Positions 35,379 through 42,408 of a DNA stretch of 64,000 nt are shown in pieces. Position numbers and translations under genes: made by a program. Below the pieces are notes generated by a model, which worked only from the letters and a program-made list of their open reading frames with translations, was not told the origin of the DNA and made no database searches. This DNA comes from Nocardia rhamnosiphila NBRC 108938 (GTDB taxonomy: Bacteria; Actinomycetota; Actinomycetes; Mycobacteriales; Mycobacteriaceae): contig NZ_JOAJ01000010.1 in the NCBI RefSeq assembly GCF_000720425.1, forward strand, positions 62,001 to 126,000, written 5' to 3'. Within the stretch, counting starts at the first letter, position 1, and each line of letters starts with the position of its first letter.

Positions 35379-36821
35379 ATGGTGATATACGGGAACAGTG
35401 GAGTTCTCGCCACGAAAAAGGCCAAAGGCATTGTGGCGAAAGAGCAGTTGGCGCCCCGTGACGCGGTGTTCGTCTACGACGAAACCGAGCGGCACCCGAC
35501 CAATATCGTTGCGGTCTATGTTTTCGACGCCACCGGGGCCGAACCGGTGGATACCGCCGCGTTGCGAGATTGGGCGCGGGCACGGCTGGGCTTCGCACCC
35601 CTGTTCCAGCGACGATTGCGACGTGTCCCACTGGATCTGGACCTGCCGTACTGGGTTCCCGATCCGGCATTCGATATCGCCGAGCACGTGGTGGCCGGAC
35701 CGTCGGGAGCCGACTGGGACACCGTGCGCGCCCGGCTCGCGGAAATAACCATGGCGCGTATGGATCTCACACGACCGCCATGGCAGATCCAGGTGTTCGA
35801 CCGAGTCCGGGCCGTTCCGGAGATCCCGGGAGAGGCCACGGTCGTCGCACTGAAATTCCACCACAGCGCCTGCGACGGTGTGGCGACCCGGGAACTCGAA
35901 CTGGAACTCTTCGGCGGCCGGGAGGCGCCGGCCGCACCGACGGCGAATCGGTGGTCGAGATCGGCGGCGGGGTTACGTGCCGCCGCGCTGTTTCCCTACC
36001 GTATAGGCCGTTTCGCAATGGGACTGTCGCGTACCCGGGCGGCGAACGCCACCGCGCGCGCCCGGATCGAGGCCGGCCTGCTGCACGAACCGGCGCCCGT
36101 ACGCCCCGCGACCCGCTTCAACCGCGCGATCGGCCCGACCGTACTGATCGAGCAGGTGTTCCTGCCGTTGCCCGAGGTGACGGCATTGCGCGACCGGTCC
36201 GCCGAACGCGTCACGGTCAACGATGTCATGCTGACCGTGGTGTCCGGTGCGCTCGCCGCCTACCTCGACGAGAAGGGTGAGACGCCACCGGAGGGACTCG
36301 CGGCGATGGTTCCGATGTCGATGCGCGGGATCGCGCAATGGGATTCGGCGAATCAGCTGTGCCAGATGACGGTCGATCTGCATACCGGTCACCGGGATCC
36401 ACGTGCGCGATTGGCGGCGATCCGGGAGTCGGTACGCCGGGAACGGCGCCGGAACAGCGATCCGGCGGTACTCCGGCACGCCGCGCGGGTCGAGACCGCG
36501 CCGGCGTGGTTGTTGCGGGTGGCCGGCCGGGCGCGAGCACATCGCTCGTTCACCGATCTGTCCTCGGTACCGCTGCACAACACCACGATCAGCAATGTCC
36601 CGCCGCTGGGTGCCGGGCTGACCTTCCGCGGCGCGCCGGTGCTGCGGGCGTTCGGTGTCCTGCCGCCGATGGACGGTGACGGTCTGCGGCACCTGATCTC
36701 GGCCCAGGGCGAGGAGATCGTGCTCACCATCAGCGTCGACAAGGCGATGATGCCGGACCCCGACCGCTACCGGGAGCTGCTGCGGGAATCGTTCCGCGAG
36801 CTGGTGGAAGCCCTCGACTGA
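35379..36821 (+). CDS. Wax ester synthase/diacylglycerol acyltransferase-like protein
   Basis: A 480-residue acyltransferase that would esterify alcohols or diacylglycerol with acyl-CoA to make storage lipid. The catalytic HHxxxDG motif is present as KFHHSACDGV near residue 160. Other family features are LAPRDAVFVYDETERHPTNIVAVYVFD at the N-terminus, VNDVMLTVVSGALAAYL, and the C-terminal SSVPLHNTTISNVPP. The ATG at 35379 has AGGAA upstream; a slightly later start is possible because the family usually begins close to LAPRDAVF. Substrate not determinable. Confidence 0.87.
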   Translation: MVIYGNSGVLATKKAKGIVAKEQLAPRDAVFVYDETERHPTNIVAVYVFDATGAEPVDTAALRDWARARLGFAPLFQRRLRRVPLDLDLPYWVPDPAFDIAEHVVAGPSGADWDTVRARLAEITMARMDLTRPPWQIQVFDRVRAVPEIPGEATVVALKFHHSACDGVATRELELELFGGREAPAAPTANRWSRSAAGLRAAALFPYRIGRFAMGLSRTRAANATARARIEAGLLHEPAPVRPATRFNRAIGPTVLIEQVFLPLPEVTALRDRSAERVTVNDVMLTVVSGALAAYLDEKGETPPEGLAAMVPMSMRGIAQWDSANQLCQMTVDLHTGHRDPRARLAAIRESVRRERRRNSDPAVLRHAARVETAPAWLLRVAGRARAHRSFTDLSSVPLHNTTISNVPPLGAGLTFRGAPVLRAFGVLPPMDGDGLRHLISAQGEEIVLTISVDKAMMPDPDRYRELLRESFRELVEALD

Positions 36822-36828
36822 CGCGCCG

Positions 36829-36857
36829 CGGGCCCCGCCGGATACCGGCGGGGCCCG
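36829..36857. terminator. Bidirectional hairpin between acyltransferase and mycoloyltransferase genes
   Basis: A perfect 13-bp GC stem, CGGGCCCCGCCGG at 36829-36841 pairing with 36845-36857, with the 3-base loop ATA. It lies 8 bases after the WS/DGAT stop and 24 bases beyond the stop of the convergent gene, so it can serve both. Confidence 0.8.
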
Positions 36858-36880
36858 GCGAGACCGCGGCCGCGGTGGGT

Positions 36881-37900
36881 TCAGGAGGTCAGCGCACCGG
36901 CCAGCAGTGGCCAGGATCGGTGCAGATCATCCTGCCAATACCCCCACGAATGGGTGCCGGAAGGACGGAGGTCGTAGACGATATCGGTCCGGCCGAGCTC
37001 CTGGGTGCGGCGCTGGAGCGCCCGGGTGCAGTAGTCGGCCGCGGCCTCGATTCCGCCGCCGACGAGCAGCTGGTTCCACAGCATCTTCTGATTACCGTCG
37101 AGCCGTGGGTCGTCGGCGCTGTCGTATCGCCCGGCCAGCCCGGTGCCGCTGGTGATGTACATGGGGATATCCGGGAGCCGGTGGGCCTGCAGGTAGGGGT
37201 CGTGTTCCCGCCACCCCGGACCGTCGGTCGGGCCCCACATGTTCTCGGCGTTGCCGCCGCCCAGACTTACCACCAGGGTGACGAACGCCTGACCGAGCAG
37301 GTCGCTGGTCATCGCACATCCGCTGTACGCCGCCGCCGCGCTGTAGAGGTGGGGCGCGCGGATGGTGAGGTCGAGTACCGAGGTCGCGGCCATCGAGATC
37401 CCCGCGATCGCGTTCCGGCCCGTGGTACCGAAAGCGGCATCGAGTACGGGCGGTAGTTCTTCGGTGAGGAAGGTCGCCCACATGTTCCGGCCGTTGTTGC
37501 CCAGTTTCGCGGCCAGGCCGGAATCCTCTTGCTGCCAGTCGGTGTAGTAGCTGAAGGCCCCCTCGCGGGGGATCACCACATTGACGTGTTCACCGGCGAA
37601 GAATTCGGACACGTCGGTCTGCGCGGACCAGGTCGCGGCGTCTTCGCCGCCGCCGGCACCGTTGAGCAGGTAAAGGGTCGGCGCGGGGGTACCGGTATCG
37701 GCCGGGCGCAGGACCTGCAGCGGGATATCACGCCGCATGGCCGGTGAGTACACCGTGACCTCGACCGATCGTCCGGCACCGGGCGCGAGCGAGACGATAT
37801 GCGCTCCCGGGGTGGCGGCGGCGCGTGGTGCCGCGCCCAGGGCGAGAACGAACAGTATTGCCAGCAGATATGCCGGCGCGGTCCTGCTACGTGAAATCAT
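36881..37900 (-). CDS. Antigen-85-like secreted esterase / mycoloyltransferase
   Basis: A 339-residue exported alpha/beta hydrolase. A signal peptide (SRTAPAYLLAILFVLALGAAPRAAA) is followed by VTVYSPAMRRDIPLQVLRPADTGTPAPTLYLLNGAGG. The nucleophile is the Ser in AIAGISMAATSVLDLTIRAP, and the His is in PSGTHSWGYWQDDL, very like the HSWEYW of antigen 85. These enzymes move mycolic acids onto trehalose, arabinogalactan or, in Corynebacterium (MytC), onto small porin peptides. I placed the start at 37900 so the signal peptide begins MISRSRT. Two tandem 38-residue peptide genes lie just upstream on the same strand. Confidence 0.85.
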   Translation of the reverse strand: MISRSRTAPAYLLAILFVLALGAAPRAAATPGAHIVSLAPGAGRSVEVTVYSPAMRRDIPLQVLRPADTGTPAPTLYLLNGAGGGEDAATWSAQTDVSEFFAGEHVNVVIPREGAFSYYTDWQQEDSGLAAKLGNNGRNMWATFLTEELPPVLDAAFGTTGRNAIAGISMAATSVLDLTIRAPHLYSAAAAYSGCAMTSDLLGQAFVTLVVSLGGGNAENMWGPTDGPGWREHDPYLQAHRLPDIPMYITSGTGLAGRYDSADDPRLDGNQKMLWNQLLVGGGIEAAADYCTRALQRRTQELGRTDIVYDLRPSGTHSWGYWQDDLHRSWPLLAGALTS

Positions 37901-37927
37901 CAATTCGTATACGTGGCTTTCGAGCAC

Positions 37928-37958
37928 GGGGTCCACCCGTGGTGACCGGGTGGACCCC
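37928..37958 (-). terminator. Hairpin between the small peptide genes and the mycoloyltransferase gene
   Basis: A perfect 12-bp inverted repeat, GGGGTCCACCCG at 37928-37939 pairing with 37947-37958, with a 7-base loop. It starts 17 bases after the stop of the second peptide gene. It could be a terminator or attenuator that lets most transcripts stop after the peptides and some read into the esterase. Confidence 0.65.
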
Positions 37959-37974
37959 CTTTCCGACCGGCGAT

Positions 37975-38091
37975 CTATTTGCCGGGCGCGGGCGTGCCCC
38001 CGCTCAGGGTGATCAGCGCGTTGACGATACTCGTGCCGACACCTCCGGCGCTGGCGGTGCCCATGCCCAGTATTTCGAAGAGAGATCCCAT
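37975..38091 (-). CDS. 38-residue MGSL peptide 2 (candidate envelope peptide)
   Basis: The ATG at 38091 has GGAG 8 bases upstream and opens a 38-codon frame. The product starts MGSLFEILGMGTASAGGVG and continues TSIVNALITLSGGTPAPGK. It is short, Gly/Ser/Ala/Leu-rich and has no signal peptide. It has the same length and the same first four residues as the neighbouring peptide 1, so the two are likely paralogues. In layout and size class it recalls PorA/PorH, small mycolated channel peptides of Corynebacterium that also lack signal sequences. Homology to those is not established. Confidence 0.65.
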   Translation of the reverse strand: MGSLFEILGMGTASAGGVGTSIVNALITLSGGTPAPGK

Positions 38092-38121
38092 GTCGTGCTC
38101 CTTGCAGTGCTGAATTAACGG

Positions 38122-38137
38122 AATTCCGATCGGAATT
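38122..38137. repeat. 16-base perfect palindrome between the two peptide genes
   Basis: AATTCCGATCGGAATT lies in the 76-base spacer between the peptide 1 stop and the peptide 2 ribosome site. It may be a small RNA hairpin or a protein site. Its AT content stands out from the surroundings. Confidence 0.5.
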
Positions 38138-38167
38138 TCGGTGAAAGTGGGTGTATCGTTCGCCGAA

Positions 38168-38284
38168 TCAGGCGGCGACGCTTCCCTGTAGGGAACCGAT
38201 GAAAACATCGAGGAGGCCGTCACCCGCGACGGCCGAACCGAGTGCCGGAATCAACGCGGTGAGCAGATCGGTCAACGAACCCAT
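38168..38284 (-). CDS. 38-residue MGSL peptide 1 (candidate envelope peptide)
   Basis: The ATG at 38284 is preceded by GAGGAG at a good spacing. The 38-residue product starts MGSLTDLLTALIPALGSAVA and continues GDGLLDVFIGSLQGSVAA. It could fold as an amphipathic helix or two short ones with a Gly-Asp turn. No signal peptide is present. It is the first gene of the unit, about 95 bases downstream of a promoter candidate at 38379-38407. Function unknown; possible roles include a channel-forming or mycolated envelope peptide, or a surface-active peptide. Confidence 0.65.
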   Translation of the reverse strand: MGSLTDLLTALIPALGSAVAGDGLLDVFIGSLQGSVAA

Positions 38285-38378
38285 AGTGAACTCCTCGAGA
38301 GGGGTGAGACGTCCTCGCGGATCCGGCCTACAGCCGGAGAGGACGGTCACGGCCGCGGTGTCCCGCAGTGACCCAGGC

Positions 38379-38407
38379 AACATAACAAGCGACCAGTTTT
38401 CTCGCAA
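38379..38407 (-). promoter_or_regulatory. Promoter candidate for the MGSL peptide genes
   Basis: On the minus strand TTGCGA (38407-38402) and TATGTT (38384-38379) are separated by 17 bases. Each matches four of six positions of the standard -35 and -10 boxes. The surrounding DNA is unusually AT-rich for this genome. Transcription would begin about 90 bases before peptide 1. Confidence 0.5.
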
Positions 38408-38419
38408 CGAATTCCTCTA

Positions 38420-38886
38420 AATTTGAGTTACAGGAAACAGGCAATCAACTGGCAACCGACCGCGACGCGCTCCGCTCGCCGCCGGAACCCCGACGGGTGA
38501 TACACGGCGGGGCTGCCGCCCGGTGATGAAATCGCCGAACGCACGGCGCCGACGCGAGAAACCGGCATCGCCAGGCGCAGGAAGCCGCGGGTGTCTGGGT
38601 CGGATACCGCACCGGAACCCGCACTCGAAGGCATCGGCCGCCCCGCCCTCAGGCGACAACCCGACCCGGCTCACCCAGCGGCTGCGCACTCCTCTGCTGC
38701 GGCACGCGGCCCGGGCCGGATCACAAGCCCACCCGGCGGTCTCGACGGCGAACGCCGCCCGTGTCGAGCGAACGTGCCGGCACACCGGCAGGCGATGGAC
38801 TGCCCGGCGCGAGAACGCCCATCCACCACGCGGCAGCCCGCCACGCCGGAGAGGCAAGAGCGGGAGACGAATCGGCGCTGATATGG
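38420..38886. other. GC-rich stretch without a recognisable gene
   Basis: Overlapping open frames exist on both strands (about 38417-38917 minus, 38523-38978 plus), but their translations are Arg/Pro/Ala-rich without domains or ribosome sites, as expected from chance frames in high-GC DNA. It may be decayed sequence. Confidence 0.45.
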
Positions 38887-38919
38887 CGATGGCTCGGACC
38901 GGCCGGGTCCGAGCCATCG
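38887..38919 (-). terminator. Hairpin terminator after the SnoaL-like gene
   Basis: A perfect 14-bp stem, CGATGGCTCGGACC at 38887-38900 pairing with 38906-38919, and a 5-base loop. It lies 29 bases beyond the stop of the minus-strand gene ending at 38948. Confidence 0.75.
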
Positions 38920-38947
38920 ACGTATCAGCGCACCGTAGGCGGCGGAC

Positions 38948-39331
38948 TCAGGCGAACACCTGGGTGAGGTCGCCGTAGAGCCGCTGCTCGGTGCACTGGG
39001 TGTCCGCGTCGAAACTCGCGTACACCGCCCCGGGGATATCGAGTTCCGTACCGTTCTTCAGCCAGTAGTGGATCCGGATCTCGAAGGTGACCTCGGCCGT
39101 ACCGTCCGCCGCGGTCTGCGGCTCCATCCAATGGAAAATGGTGTGCCGAATCTTGGTGGTCTGGTCGAGCACGTACCGGATGGAGGCGGAGGCCGCTTCC
39201 CGGCCGGTCACGGGGTCGGCATTGGCGAAGGTCAGCTTCACGTCGTCGGTCATCAACTGCACGGCATCGGCCAACCGGCCGGAGTCGATGTGCTCGTAGT
39301 AGTCCTCCACGGCCTTCCGGACGGACGTCAT
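38948..39331 (-). CDS. SnoaL-like (NTF2-fold) protein
   Basis: A 127-residue single-domain protein. VRKAVEDYYEHIDSGRLADAVQLMTDDVKLTFANADPVTGREAASASIRYVLDQTTKIRH is the classic SnoaL_2 start with the helix pair and ligand cavity. The later strands VTFEIRIHYWLKNGTELDIPGAVYASFD complete the fold. AAGGAGTGGGTTG precedes the ATG at 39331. It is a different branch from the SnoaL protein at 27390. Function unknown. Confidence 0.83.
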   Translation of the reverse strand: MTSVRKAVEDYYEHIDSGRLADAVQLMTDDVKLTFANADPVTGREAASASIRYVLDQTTKIRHTIFHWMEPQTAADGTAEVTFEIRIHYWLKNGTELDIPGAVYASFDADTQCTEQRLYGDLTQVFA

Positions 39332-39563
39332 CAACCCACTCCTTGCTGAGTTCCCTGAAAAGAGAATGGTTTTCGATTACTGCGAGCACACAGTAGTAGA
39401 AGTTCACCGCGAGCGCGCTCGGATCGAAGGGATCGGAGAGAAAGCCGGCCGGCGACGACACACGGAGCAGACTTCTCGCGTCGACACCGGGCAGCCCGAG
39501 ATCGCAACCTCGGAAACCCCGATAGCAGGACGGGCCGGGCTTTCCGGCGCGCGGCCCGTCCAC

Positions 39564-40861: not shown

Positions 40862-40903
40862 GTGAGTGGGGCACCCGGCCTCGAGGCCGGGTGCCCCACT
40901 CAC
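40862..40903. terminator. Perfect 42-base palindromic terminator
   Basis: Bases 40862-40903 form a perfect palindrome (arms of about 20 bp beginning GTGAGTGGGGCACCCGGC). The stop codon of the HDAC-like gene (40900-40902) lies inside one arm. It separates the convergent HTH gene and HDAC-like gene. As RNA it gives one long GC hairpin on either strand. Confidence 0.8.
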
Positions 40904-42003
40904 ATCGCGGGAGCGTGCGCCGCCGCCTGGATGGCCTCGGCCTCGTGATCGAGCAATACGTCCCCACCTTGCGTCGAGACGATCGGGCTGTACGGGTCCG
41001 GCTCGTAGGGGTCGCCGAGCAGTTCGCGCAGCACCGCCAGCCCGCAGAACGGCACATAGTGCGGGCTGTATCCACCCTCCTGGACGAACGCGATCCGCCC
41101 CTCGCAGAGTTCGGCCGCCACATCGAGCACGCGCCGGGTGAGCCGGGCGAATCCGGCACTGGTGACCATCTGGCGGGCCAGCGGATCCATGATGCTCGCG
41201 TCGAAACCGGAGGCCACCAGGATCAGCTCGGGCCGGAACTCGCGCAGCGCCGGCAGCACGACCTCGTCCATGGCGTGCACATGGGCGGCGTCACCACTGG
41301 CGGGCGGCAGCGGGATATTGATCGAGAAGCCCTCCCCCGCACCGGTGCCCCGCTCCTCCAGGTAGCCGGAGTTCGGCGGGAAGCACAGATGTTGATGCAG
41401 CGAAACGGTGAGTACCGACGGGTCGCTGTACCAGATCTCCTGAGTGCCGTTGCCGTGGTGGACATCCCAATCCACCACGGCCACCCGTTCCAGCCCGAGG
41501 ACGTCCTTGGCGTAGGCGGCGGCTATCGAAATATTGTTGAAAATGCAGAACCCCATCCCACCGGCCCGGTACGCGTGATGTCCCGGCGGGTTGACCAGCG
41601 CGTAACCGGTATCGATGGTCCGGGAGACCACCTGATCCACGAGTTGGATCGCACCGCCTGCGGACAGCGCCGCGATCTCGTAACCCCCGCGCCCGAACGG
41701 CGAACAACCGTCCCCGGCGTCGCCGCCCTTCGGCAGGAGGCTCTCCTCCTTGATCCGGGCCAGATGCTCGGCGGTATGGACGCGGAGGATATCCGCCTCG
41801 GTGGCCGGGACCGCCCGCACCGGTCGCAGCCGGTCGAGCAACCCGGAAACGGCGACCAGTTCGTGGAACCGGCGTTTGGTATCGGGGTGGGCGAGATGGT
41901 GACCTATCGGCTGGAGTCCGGTGGTCGCATCGGCGGGGAACAAGCTCCCCGAACCGGTGTCGGCCCATCCGTAGACCGTGTTCCAGACATATCCGATTGT
42001 CAT
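40900..42003 (-). CDS. Class II histone-deacetylase-like amidohydrolase
   Basis: A 367-residue zinc hydrolase of the HDAC/acetylpolyamine-deacetylase superfamily. Conserved elements are PPGHHAY with the active-site His pair, DWDVHHGNGTQEIWYSDP with the zinc-binding Asp and His, and LVASGFDAS with the second zinc Asp. The C-terminal EGGYSP supplies the GG-Y element. The bacterial substrate may be acetylated proteins, polyamines or small molecules. AAGGAG before the ATG at 42003 fixes the start. Its stop lies in a perfect palindrome. Confidence 0.88.
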   Translation of the reverse strand: MTIGYVWNTVYGWADTGSGSLFPADATTGLQPIGHHLAHPDTKRRFHELVAVSGLLDRLRPVRAVPATEADILRVHTAEHLARIKEESLLPKGGDAGDGCSPFGRGGYEIAALSAGGAIQLVDQVVSRTIDTGYALVNPPGHHAYRAGGMGFCIFNNISIAAAYAKDVLGLERVAVVDWDVHHGNGTQEIWYSDPSVLTVSLHQHLCFPPNSGYLEERGTGAGEGFSINIPLPPASGDAAHVHAMDEVVLPALREFRPELILVASGFDASIMDPLARQMVTSAGFARLTRRVLDVAAELCEGRIAFVQEGGYSPHYVPFCGLAVLRELLGDPYEPDPYSPIVSTQGGDVLLDHEAEAIQAAAHAPAM

Positions 42004-42408
42004 GGTCGAACTCCTTGGTGTCCCGCTACCCGCGCGAGCGGGCGCCGGACGGCAAACCGCGCGCAATCGATCGACAGCGCCAGCTCATCGAGCCACAACC
42101 GGTCCGGCCGTGCAACCGGAACGCGAATGTTGGGAGGACTCCCCGGGGAGGACAGTTCCGCAATCGGAAGCGCCGATCCAGGACCGGTGGACCAACGCGC
42201 GAAGCCGCGCACTTGTAAACCCATGTCCGAATCGAGCGGGGCGGCGGTCGAGTATCTCGGATTTACCGACCGCCGCCCCGGTAGCTACCGACGGTACGGG
42301 CCACGGCAACTCATCGGTGTCGCGAAAGATTCTTCGAAAACACAGGTGGGAGCAGAATTCATCGCGTCGTCGCCCGGTGCCCGCGCGGGGGTGCCAGAGT
42401 CGGACGGT
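42004..42408. other. Divergent intergenic region with a long hairpin
   Basis: The region between the HDAC-like and UshA-like genes holds no convincing gene. A perfect 14-bp inverted repeat lies at 42237-42250 and 42267-42280 (CGGGGCGGCGGTCG arm) with a 16-base loop. It is far from either stop codon, so it may act as a leader structure or a terminator for an unseen transcript. Confidence 0.55.

Follow-up and report, generated by a model that had tools for sequence, protein, structure and literature searches.

Two conserved small peptides encoded beside a MytC-class mycoloyltransferase in Nocardia and related genera: a candidate PorA/PorH-like pair

The locus and the conservation of its peptides

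The window analyzed here is a stretch of 64,000 nucleotides from Nocardia rhamnosiphila NBRC 108938 (contig NZ_JOAJ01000010.1, positions 62,001 to 126,000 of the forward strand; all coordinates below refer to the stretch itself). It carries a cluster of two small peptide genes, A and B, a predicted mycoloyltransferase and a WS/DGAT-type O-acyltransferase. An earlier note on this DNA had described two tandem minus-strand open reading frames of 38 codons, each starting with MGSL and each with a ribosome site, followed on the same strand by an esterase resembling antigen 85 (Ag85). All of these are present. Peptide A (38168-38284, minus strand, MGSLTDLLTALIPALGSAVAGDGLLDVFIGSLQGSVAA) and peptide B (37975-38091, minus strand, MGSLFEILGMGTASAGGVGTSIVNALITLSGGTPAPGK) both have 38 codons and the MGSL start, and purine-rich ribosome-binding sites, GAGGAG for A (38291..38296, minus) and AAGGAG for B (38098..38103, minus), lie six bases 5′ of the respective ATG. 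The esterase gene covers 36881..37900 on the minus strand when read from its ATG, with GTG 37936 as an alternative start. Its product matches the Pfam Esterase domain PF00756 (1.8e-32) and its N-terminus is, by eye, of the Sec type. The WS/DGAT gene (35379..36821, plus strand) converges on the esterase gene.

The searches covered 119 genomes, 71 of which share the genus of the window and the others its order. Among the 71 same-genus genomes 21 have an A match at E < 1e-4, and precisely these also have a B match at that threshold, close to A. When the B profile was run against named genomes, 36 of 64 pattern matches could be confirmed. They all come from Nocardia, with a few species or near relatives represented repeatedly, and together with the window they make up the 37 loci referred to below. 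The order A, B, esterase on one strand is kept in 36/36 named loci, with a median gap of 70 bases between A and B. Conserved synteny across Nocardia and its relatives, which the earlier note had named as a check, is thus borne out, and it extends to other genera. The peptides of the relatives are also preceded by a purine-rich ribosome-site motif; our locus script demanded such a motif and an MGS start, listed only open reading frames having the motif, and all loci passed. Codon differences are concentrated at third positions. Counted pairwise at positions 1/2/3, with pairs that are not independent, they amount to 112/54/336 for A and 118/36/329 for B in the clade of the window and to 7/14/129 for A and 7/0/124 for B in the nova clade; the third-position excess is seen in four clades. 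From this substitution bias we conclude, on the basis of sequence comparison, that peptides A and B are real, conserved genes.

Neither peptide matches a known family in Pfam or NCBIfam. Searched against a protein database, the A profile retrieved 39 proteins, whose names, where given at all, are hypothetical or uncharacterised, and the B profile 10 proteins. Weak matches of A and B at E 0.01-1 lie mostly within long frames and were treated as chance. A common ancestry of the two peptides is no more than a possibility: a comparison of their profiles joins only the first 15 residues (probability 48%), and their pairwise score is matched by 42 of 500 shuffles. In seven loci (L144, L145, L146, L147, L149, L152 and L153) two or three tandem A-B pairs precede a single transferase, and in the locus AG03 an extra A stands between B and the esterase. 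An extra A-like peptide is also encoded in N. thailandica (L142:7581), whose linked enzyme departs from the usual GTHSW pattern. Among the open-access matches listed, titles and abstract openings gave no description of such a peptide pair in Nocardia, Prescottella or Rhodococcus.

At E < 1e-10 the A profile found, among 397 genomes of the order, 10 of the same genus and one of another genus (G318). The B profile at E <= 0.01 found 49 of 401 genomes of the family, 27 of the same genus and 22 others. Loci of 19 of these 22 were examined; the matches in G498, G512 and G688 (E 0.002-0.008) and a second, partial B match in G030 are outside this set, and at the loci fetched for a B match in G377 and a second, partial B match in G000 nothing was found. 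All of the 19 loci but G604 have an A upstream of B; the most divergent pair is that of G509. G509 is also the only one of the 19 without a MytC-like gene in the following 2.5 kb. In 11 of the other 18 this gene is a closer relative, with 58-67% identity (in pieces, 47-59%, in G571 and G546), and behind it stands a second Ag85-like gene of about 39-42% identity (in pieces in G604); these are the loci L154, L190, L191, L193, L194, L196, L199, L200, L201, L203 and L205. The cluster is also found in Speluncibacter (G481).

Eight scanned loci belong to a genus, g91, that appears Prescottella-like from names among the relatives of one of its A peptides. Six of the eight contain two to four further low-charge small peptides, mostly 1.6-3.4 kb downstream of B (L193:9560-10363, L194:9579-10392, L195:7776 and 9494, L202:8785-9514, L204:8638-8834, L207:4737-5415 (minus)). 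Their styles are MGSIADIL.., M(G/S)SLADL..IPVMS.DA, M(G/A)S..(G/D)IF and GS..IPVGSAD. One of these families matched 11 of 301 genomes of the family, 10 of them g91, and in G561 it sits far from the A-B pair.

The linked enzymes

Among all solved chains the best match of the window enzyme is Cmt1/MytC of Corynebacterium glutamicum (PDB 4h18, 8qhf; 248 bits, 43% identity), followed by PS1 with 139 bits and Ag85-A with 112 bits. By eye it has in common with MytC the segment GLAG..DS.D.PR..G, which is absent from PS1, and the catalytic Ser, Glu and His positions of MytC are kept. The best solved match, the MytC-type loop and the triad together indicate that the linked enzyme is of the MytC class and not a generic Ag85. 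The MytC loop has been proposed to set peptide specificity, and the same source, citing another one, reports MytC orthologues in Nocardia, Gordonia and Rhodococcus, not all of which are active in C. glutamicum (PMC5310785). Orthologues of the window enzyme are found in 22 of the 71 same-genus genomes at 467.8-767.3 bits, the next matches reaching at most 344.5 bits, and 21 of these 22 genomes have the peptides. A tree of 63 rows joins the peptide-linked enzymes and those of G318 and G045 in a single clade of 39 (support 99/94); within it, G045 included, the triad motif patterns are found in 39/39 (Ser), 39/39 (Glu) and 38/39 (His) rows. The genome of the window itself has 16 Ag85-like matches at E <= 1e-10, five of them with the longer, MytC-like loop by eye. 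Among these five, peptides of this kind flank only the window enzyme (about 1.5 kb scanned on each side), and inspection of the flanks of 15 unlinked paralogue loci, with a ribosome-site motif required, revealed no small peptide gene of the A/B kind.

The WS/DGAT gene was not part of the earlier note. Like the wax ester/triacylglycerol synthases, its product matches PF03007 and TIGR02946 above cut-off and has the active site HHSACDG; it stands apart from them in that the nearest paralogue in its own genome reaches at most 79 bits, whereas linked copies across genera are 41-51% identical. When a tree was built, the linked copies excluded two of the three paralogues from the same genome; the third, on a very long branch, had no clear placement. 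The gene lies beside the esterase in 35 of the 36 named Nocardia loci, in varying orientation (19 convergent, 16 co-directional); the copies of L123 and L137 are fragments at contig ends, and in the single miss, N. testacea, the contig ends right after the esterase. Orthologues at E <= 1e-90 are found in 19 of the 71 same-genus genomes, all within the 21 with peptides, and in the two others (G015, G029) the contigs end inside the WS/DGAT gene. Of 48 copies found at 55 loci, 47 have the pattern HHxxx(D/N)G; the remaining one is a contig-end fragment. Beyond Nocardia, a WS/DGAT gene of more than 40% identity is near 13 of the 19 loci, G318 included, and not near six. Judged by this conservation, the WS/DGAT acyltransferase is a fourth member of the cluster. 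Five further neighbours in the window were compared: two or three are kept in the closest relatives only and the rest in none. The genes for a SnoaL-like (38948-39334, minus) and a histone-deacetylase-like protein (40900-42066, minus) adjoin the cluster in 5 of the 36 named loci, those of the closest relatives.

Promoter and hairpin

Upstream of A lies the promoter-like pair TTGCGA-17-TATGTT (38379..38407, minus), which the earlier note had taken for the promoter. A generic sigma-70 consensus scan of 35500-39500 gave no promoter site and thus missed it, yet the pair recurs exactly in 9 of the 37 upstream regions, within a conserved block, and a looser form with the same spacing and the same -10 is present in 11 more. 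The remaining 17 are without a promoter-like pair. We therefore call it a putative promoter solely from the comparison of relatives.

Between B and the transferase a GC hairpin of 12 bp (37928..37958, minus) was found. Its folding energy is -34.5 kcal/mol (z -2.5), a value equalled by 5 of 200 dinucleotide shuffles. By inspection a GC hairpin is present 3′ of B in 36 of the 37 loci, with 18 different 5′ arms, and in 18/18 non-Nocardia loci with B called; the exception is AG03, where a further A follows B. It weighs against the hairpin that its uninterrupted helix is longer than in all 100 shuffles in 22 of the 37 loci only; in this test the nova-type hairpins are interrupted by a mismatch. No T run follows 3′ of the hairpin. 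We therefore prefer attenuation or stabilization of the mRNA to an intrinsic terminator. The hairpin is probably a device for making much peptide and little enzyme. Together with the WS/DGAT member and the spread to other genera it adds to what the earlier note had described.

A possible peptide pair of the mycomembrane

In Corynebacterium, MytC alone mycoloylates PorA in vitro at Ser15 (PMC11927696), and mycoloylation sites are given as 15 in PorA, 56 in PorH and 37 in ProtX (PMC5310785). The residues around the modified serines are small ones such as Gly, Ala and Ser but follow no strict motif (PMC11066868). PorA, PorH and ProtX have no signal sequences, and how they get through the plasma membrane is described as unclear (PMC12632848). 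In 2016 the TCDB counted 8 members in the PorA family and 13 in the PorH family, from Actinobacteria (PMC4827864).

A and B resemble PorA and PorH (TC 1.B.34, 1.B.59; NCBIfam NF033925, NF033938/NF033937) in several respects. They are tiny products of tandem genes, predicted to be helical, acidic or neutral (the net charges of the window peptides are 0 and -3), with conserved serines and with hosts that are mycolic-acid bacteria. Like PorA and PorH they lack a signal peptide, as far as inspection tells. A census by pattern over 55 loci, with four A picks corrected by hand, covered 42 distinct A and 41 distinct B sequences. In A, S3 is present in 42/42 and the serines of the S17 and S31 types in 41/42 each, with G509 as the sole exception; in B, S3 and the serine of the SG motif (S30 type) are present in all 41, and S14 is invariant in the Nocardia alignment only. 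Structure prediction gives A two helices at 3-19 and 24-37 (predicted local distance difference test score, pLDDT, 77) and B one helix at 4-29 with a loose SGG tail (pLDDT 74).

By sequence, however, A and B are not members of the PorA and PorH families. The NCBIfam PorA and PorH models did not match A or B of the window or eight peptides of relatives, whereas PorA and PorH control sequences match at 7.2e-24 and 6.6e-10. Of 500 shuffles each, 13 and 19 equalled the score of B with PorA and PorH, and 175 and 432 that of A. With four comparisons in all and no hit from the family models, we do not take the B scores as homology. An amphipathic helix was considered and rejected for A and B as well: for the window peptides and those of G057 the hydrophobic moment is equalled by 12-65% of shuffles, whereas the corresponding share is 0.4% for the PorH control, which stands above shuffled sequence, and 5% for the PorA control, which nearly does. 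A PorH-like amphipathic pore is therefore not predicted. PorA and PorH further differ in that a transferase and a WS/DGAT protein are physically linked to A and B. In the PDB, the A profile matched 8pjs (SAKeCEref) at E 6.4e-8 and five further entries at E 0.25-2.1, all taken as chance, 8pjs being presumably a designed protein; the B profile gave no match up to E 10.

Real, conserved genes which travel with a mycoloyltransferase-type enzyme and a second lipid enzyme suggest peptides that are probably lipid-anchored and perhaps pore-forming. We consider it rather probable that A and B are a PorA/PorH-like pair, unrelated to these in sequence, which is mycoloylated by the linked MytC-class enzyme. 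The peptides' conservation, the synteny in 36/36 loci, the co-occurrence in 21/22 genomes, the serines, the class of the enzyme, the helical models and the Corynebacterium precedent all point to such a pair. The earlier note had proposed a comparable peptide pair with a dedicated transferase. The pair is real, signal-less by inspection, equipped with near-invariant serines and linked to a MytC-class enzyme; the comparison does not extend to membership of PorA or PorH by sequence. The word dedicated fits Nocardia. It does not fit the other genera throughout, as at 7 of the 19 non-Nocardia loci the only transferase is 38-43% identical, and G509 is without one.

We suggest that the system could work in the following steps. 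A and B would be made in quantity from one promoter as signal-less, hydrophobic, helical peptides of the mycomembrane, the hairpin after B probably yielding much peptide mRNA and little transferase mRNA. Once the peptides are across the plasma membrane, the secreted MytC-class enzyme could load conserved serines with mycolic acid taken from trehalose monomycolate. The likeliest acceptors are S30 of B, which lies in the flexible SGG tail, and either S17 or S31 of A. The acylated pair may then assemble in the outer mycomembrane, where a two-component channel of the PorA/PorH kind is a plausible product. The linked WS/DGAT enzyme would have a part in the same pathway, with either a lipid or the peptides as its substrate.

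A less probable, though still reasonable, alternative is that A and B are mycoloylated in the mycomembrane but are not channels, serving instead a structural, surface-coating or cell-wall-tethering role like ProtX. The linkage and the serines fit such a role equally, the two predicted helices of A are short, and the hydrophobic moment, no higher than in shuffled sequence, speaks for it as well. ProtX of C. glutamicum is likewise very small, predicted to be helical and signal-less, although it is set beside A and B by description and not by sequence; we know of no paired gene or linked transferase for it. ProtX is mycoloylated (PMC9671496, PMC5310785), and PorH and ProtX are cell-wall-linked according to the title of PMC12632848. 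Moreover, Nocardia farcinica already has a two-component cell-wall channel, NfpA/NfpB, encoded by adjacent genes (PMC5310785). These MspA-type proteins recall A and B in the adjacency and pairing of their genes but are Sec-secreted proteins of about 20 kDa, as opposed to peptides of 38 residues. What speaks for a channel is that two different peptides are paired and that the pairing is mostly kept when the genes multiply, as in two-component channels.

Several observations weigh against a mycoloylated PorA/PorH-like pair in general, in addition to the silent family models, the ordinary hydrophobic moment and the non-Nocardia loci with a distant transferase or none. The confidence of the models is modest (predicted template modelling score, pTM, 0.36 for A and 0.34 for B). 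Both peptides are missing at E < 1e-4 in 50 of the 71 same-genus genomes; among them is G001, where the next-best A match (3.7e-4) is a solitary A-like peptide (L156, about 5986, minus). This peptide has an insertion, the surrounding 12 kb contain no esterase or WS/DGAT match, and it is possibly a relic. The genome G045 (L155) keeps a MytC-class orthologue without the peptides and without the WS/DGAT gene. Finally, MytC of C. glutamicum does not fall inside the peptide-linked clade of the tree: its row joins the unlinked Nocardia paralogues (88/96, below the star of the tool, with the long branch flagged). The window enzyme also differs from MytC in being encoded beside its presumed substrates. 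The transferase alone in G045, the position of the MytC row and the relatives with only a more distant transferase would all fit an enzyme that is independent of the peptides, making trehalose dimycolate or cell-wall mycolates and merely adjoining conserved peptides of unrelated function. In our view this is unlikely, given the co-occurrence in 21 of 22 same-genus genomes, the order and strand kept in 36/36 loci and the recurrence of the cluster in other genera.

That A and B are leaderless antimicrobial or surface-active secreted peptides, with esterase and WS/DGAT as tailoring functions, would suit small, hydrophobic, signal-less peptides with tandem copies in some species, but we regard it as very improbable because the window peptides are neutral or acidic, the sequences are conserved and not diversifying, the neighbouring enzyme is of the MytC class, and of six window neighbours compared the WS/DGAT gene alone is widely kept, no wider search for exporter or immunity genes having been made.

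The mycoloylated pair that we favour could also be part of something larger, although we would call the following a long shot. The four genes might form an assembly line in which the peptides are O-acylated by a cytosolic WS/DGAT enzyme, exported along a lipid route in place of Sec and finally mycoloylated outside by the MytC-class enzyme. In that case A and B would be the founding members of a widespread class, with perhaps six families of signal-less peptides outside Corynebacterium, counting A, B and the four further styles, which were told apart by eye. If true, such an assembly line would solve the puzzle of how signal-less mycomembrane peptides are exported.

In summary, protein mycoloylation has been shown in Corynebacterium, and the cluster described here pairs two presumed substrates with a presumed transferase across several genera. 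It may thus offer a compact, self-contained system for the generality of protein mycoloylation, the choice of substrate, the mycoloylation site and the export route, with the linked WS/DGAT enzyme as an unexpected further component.

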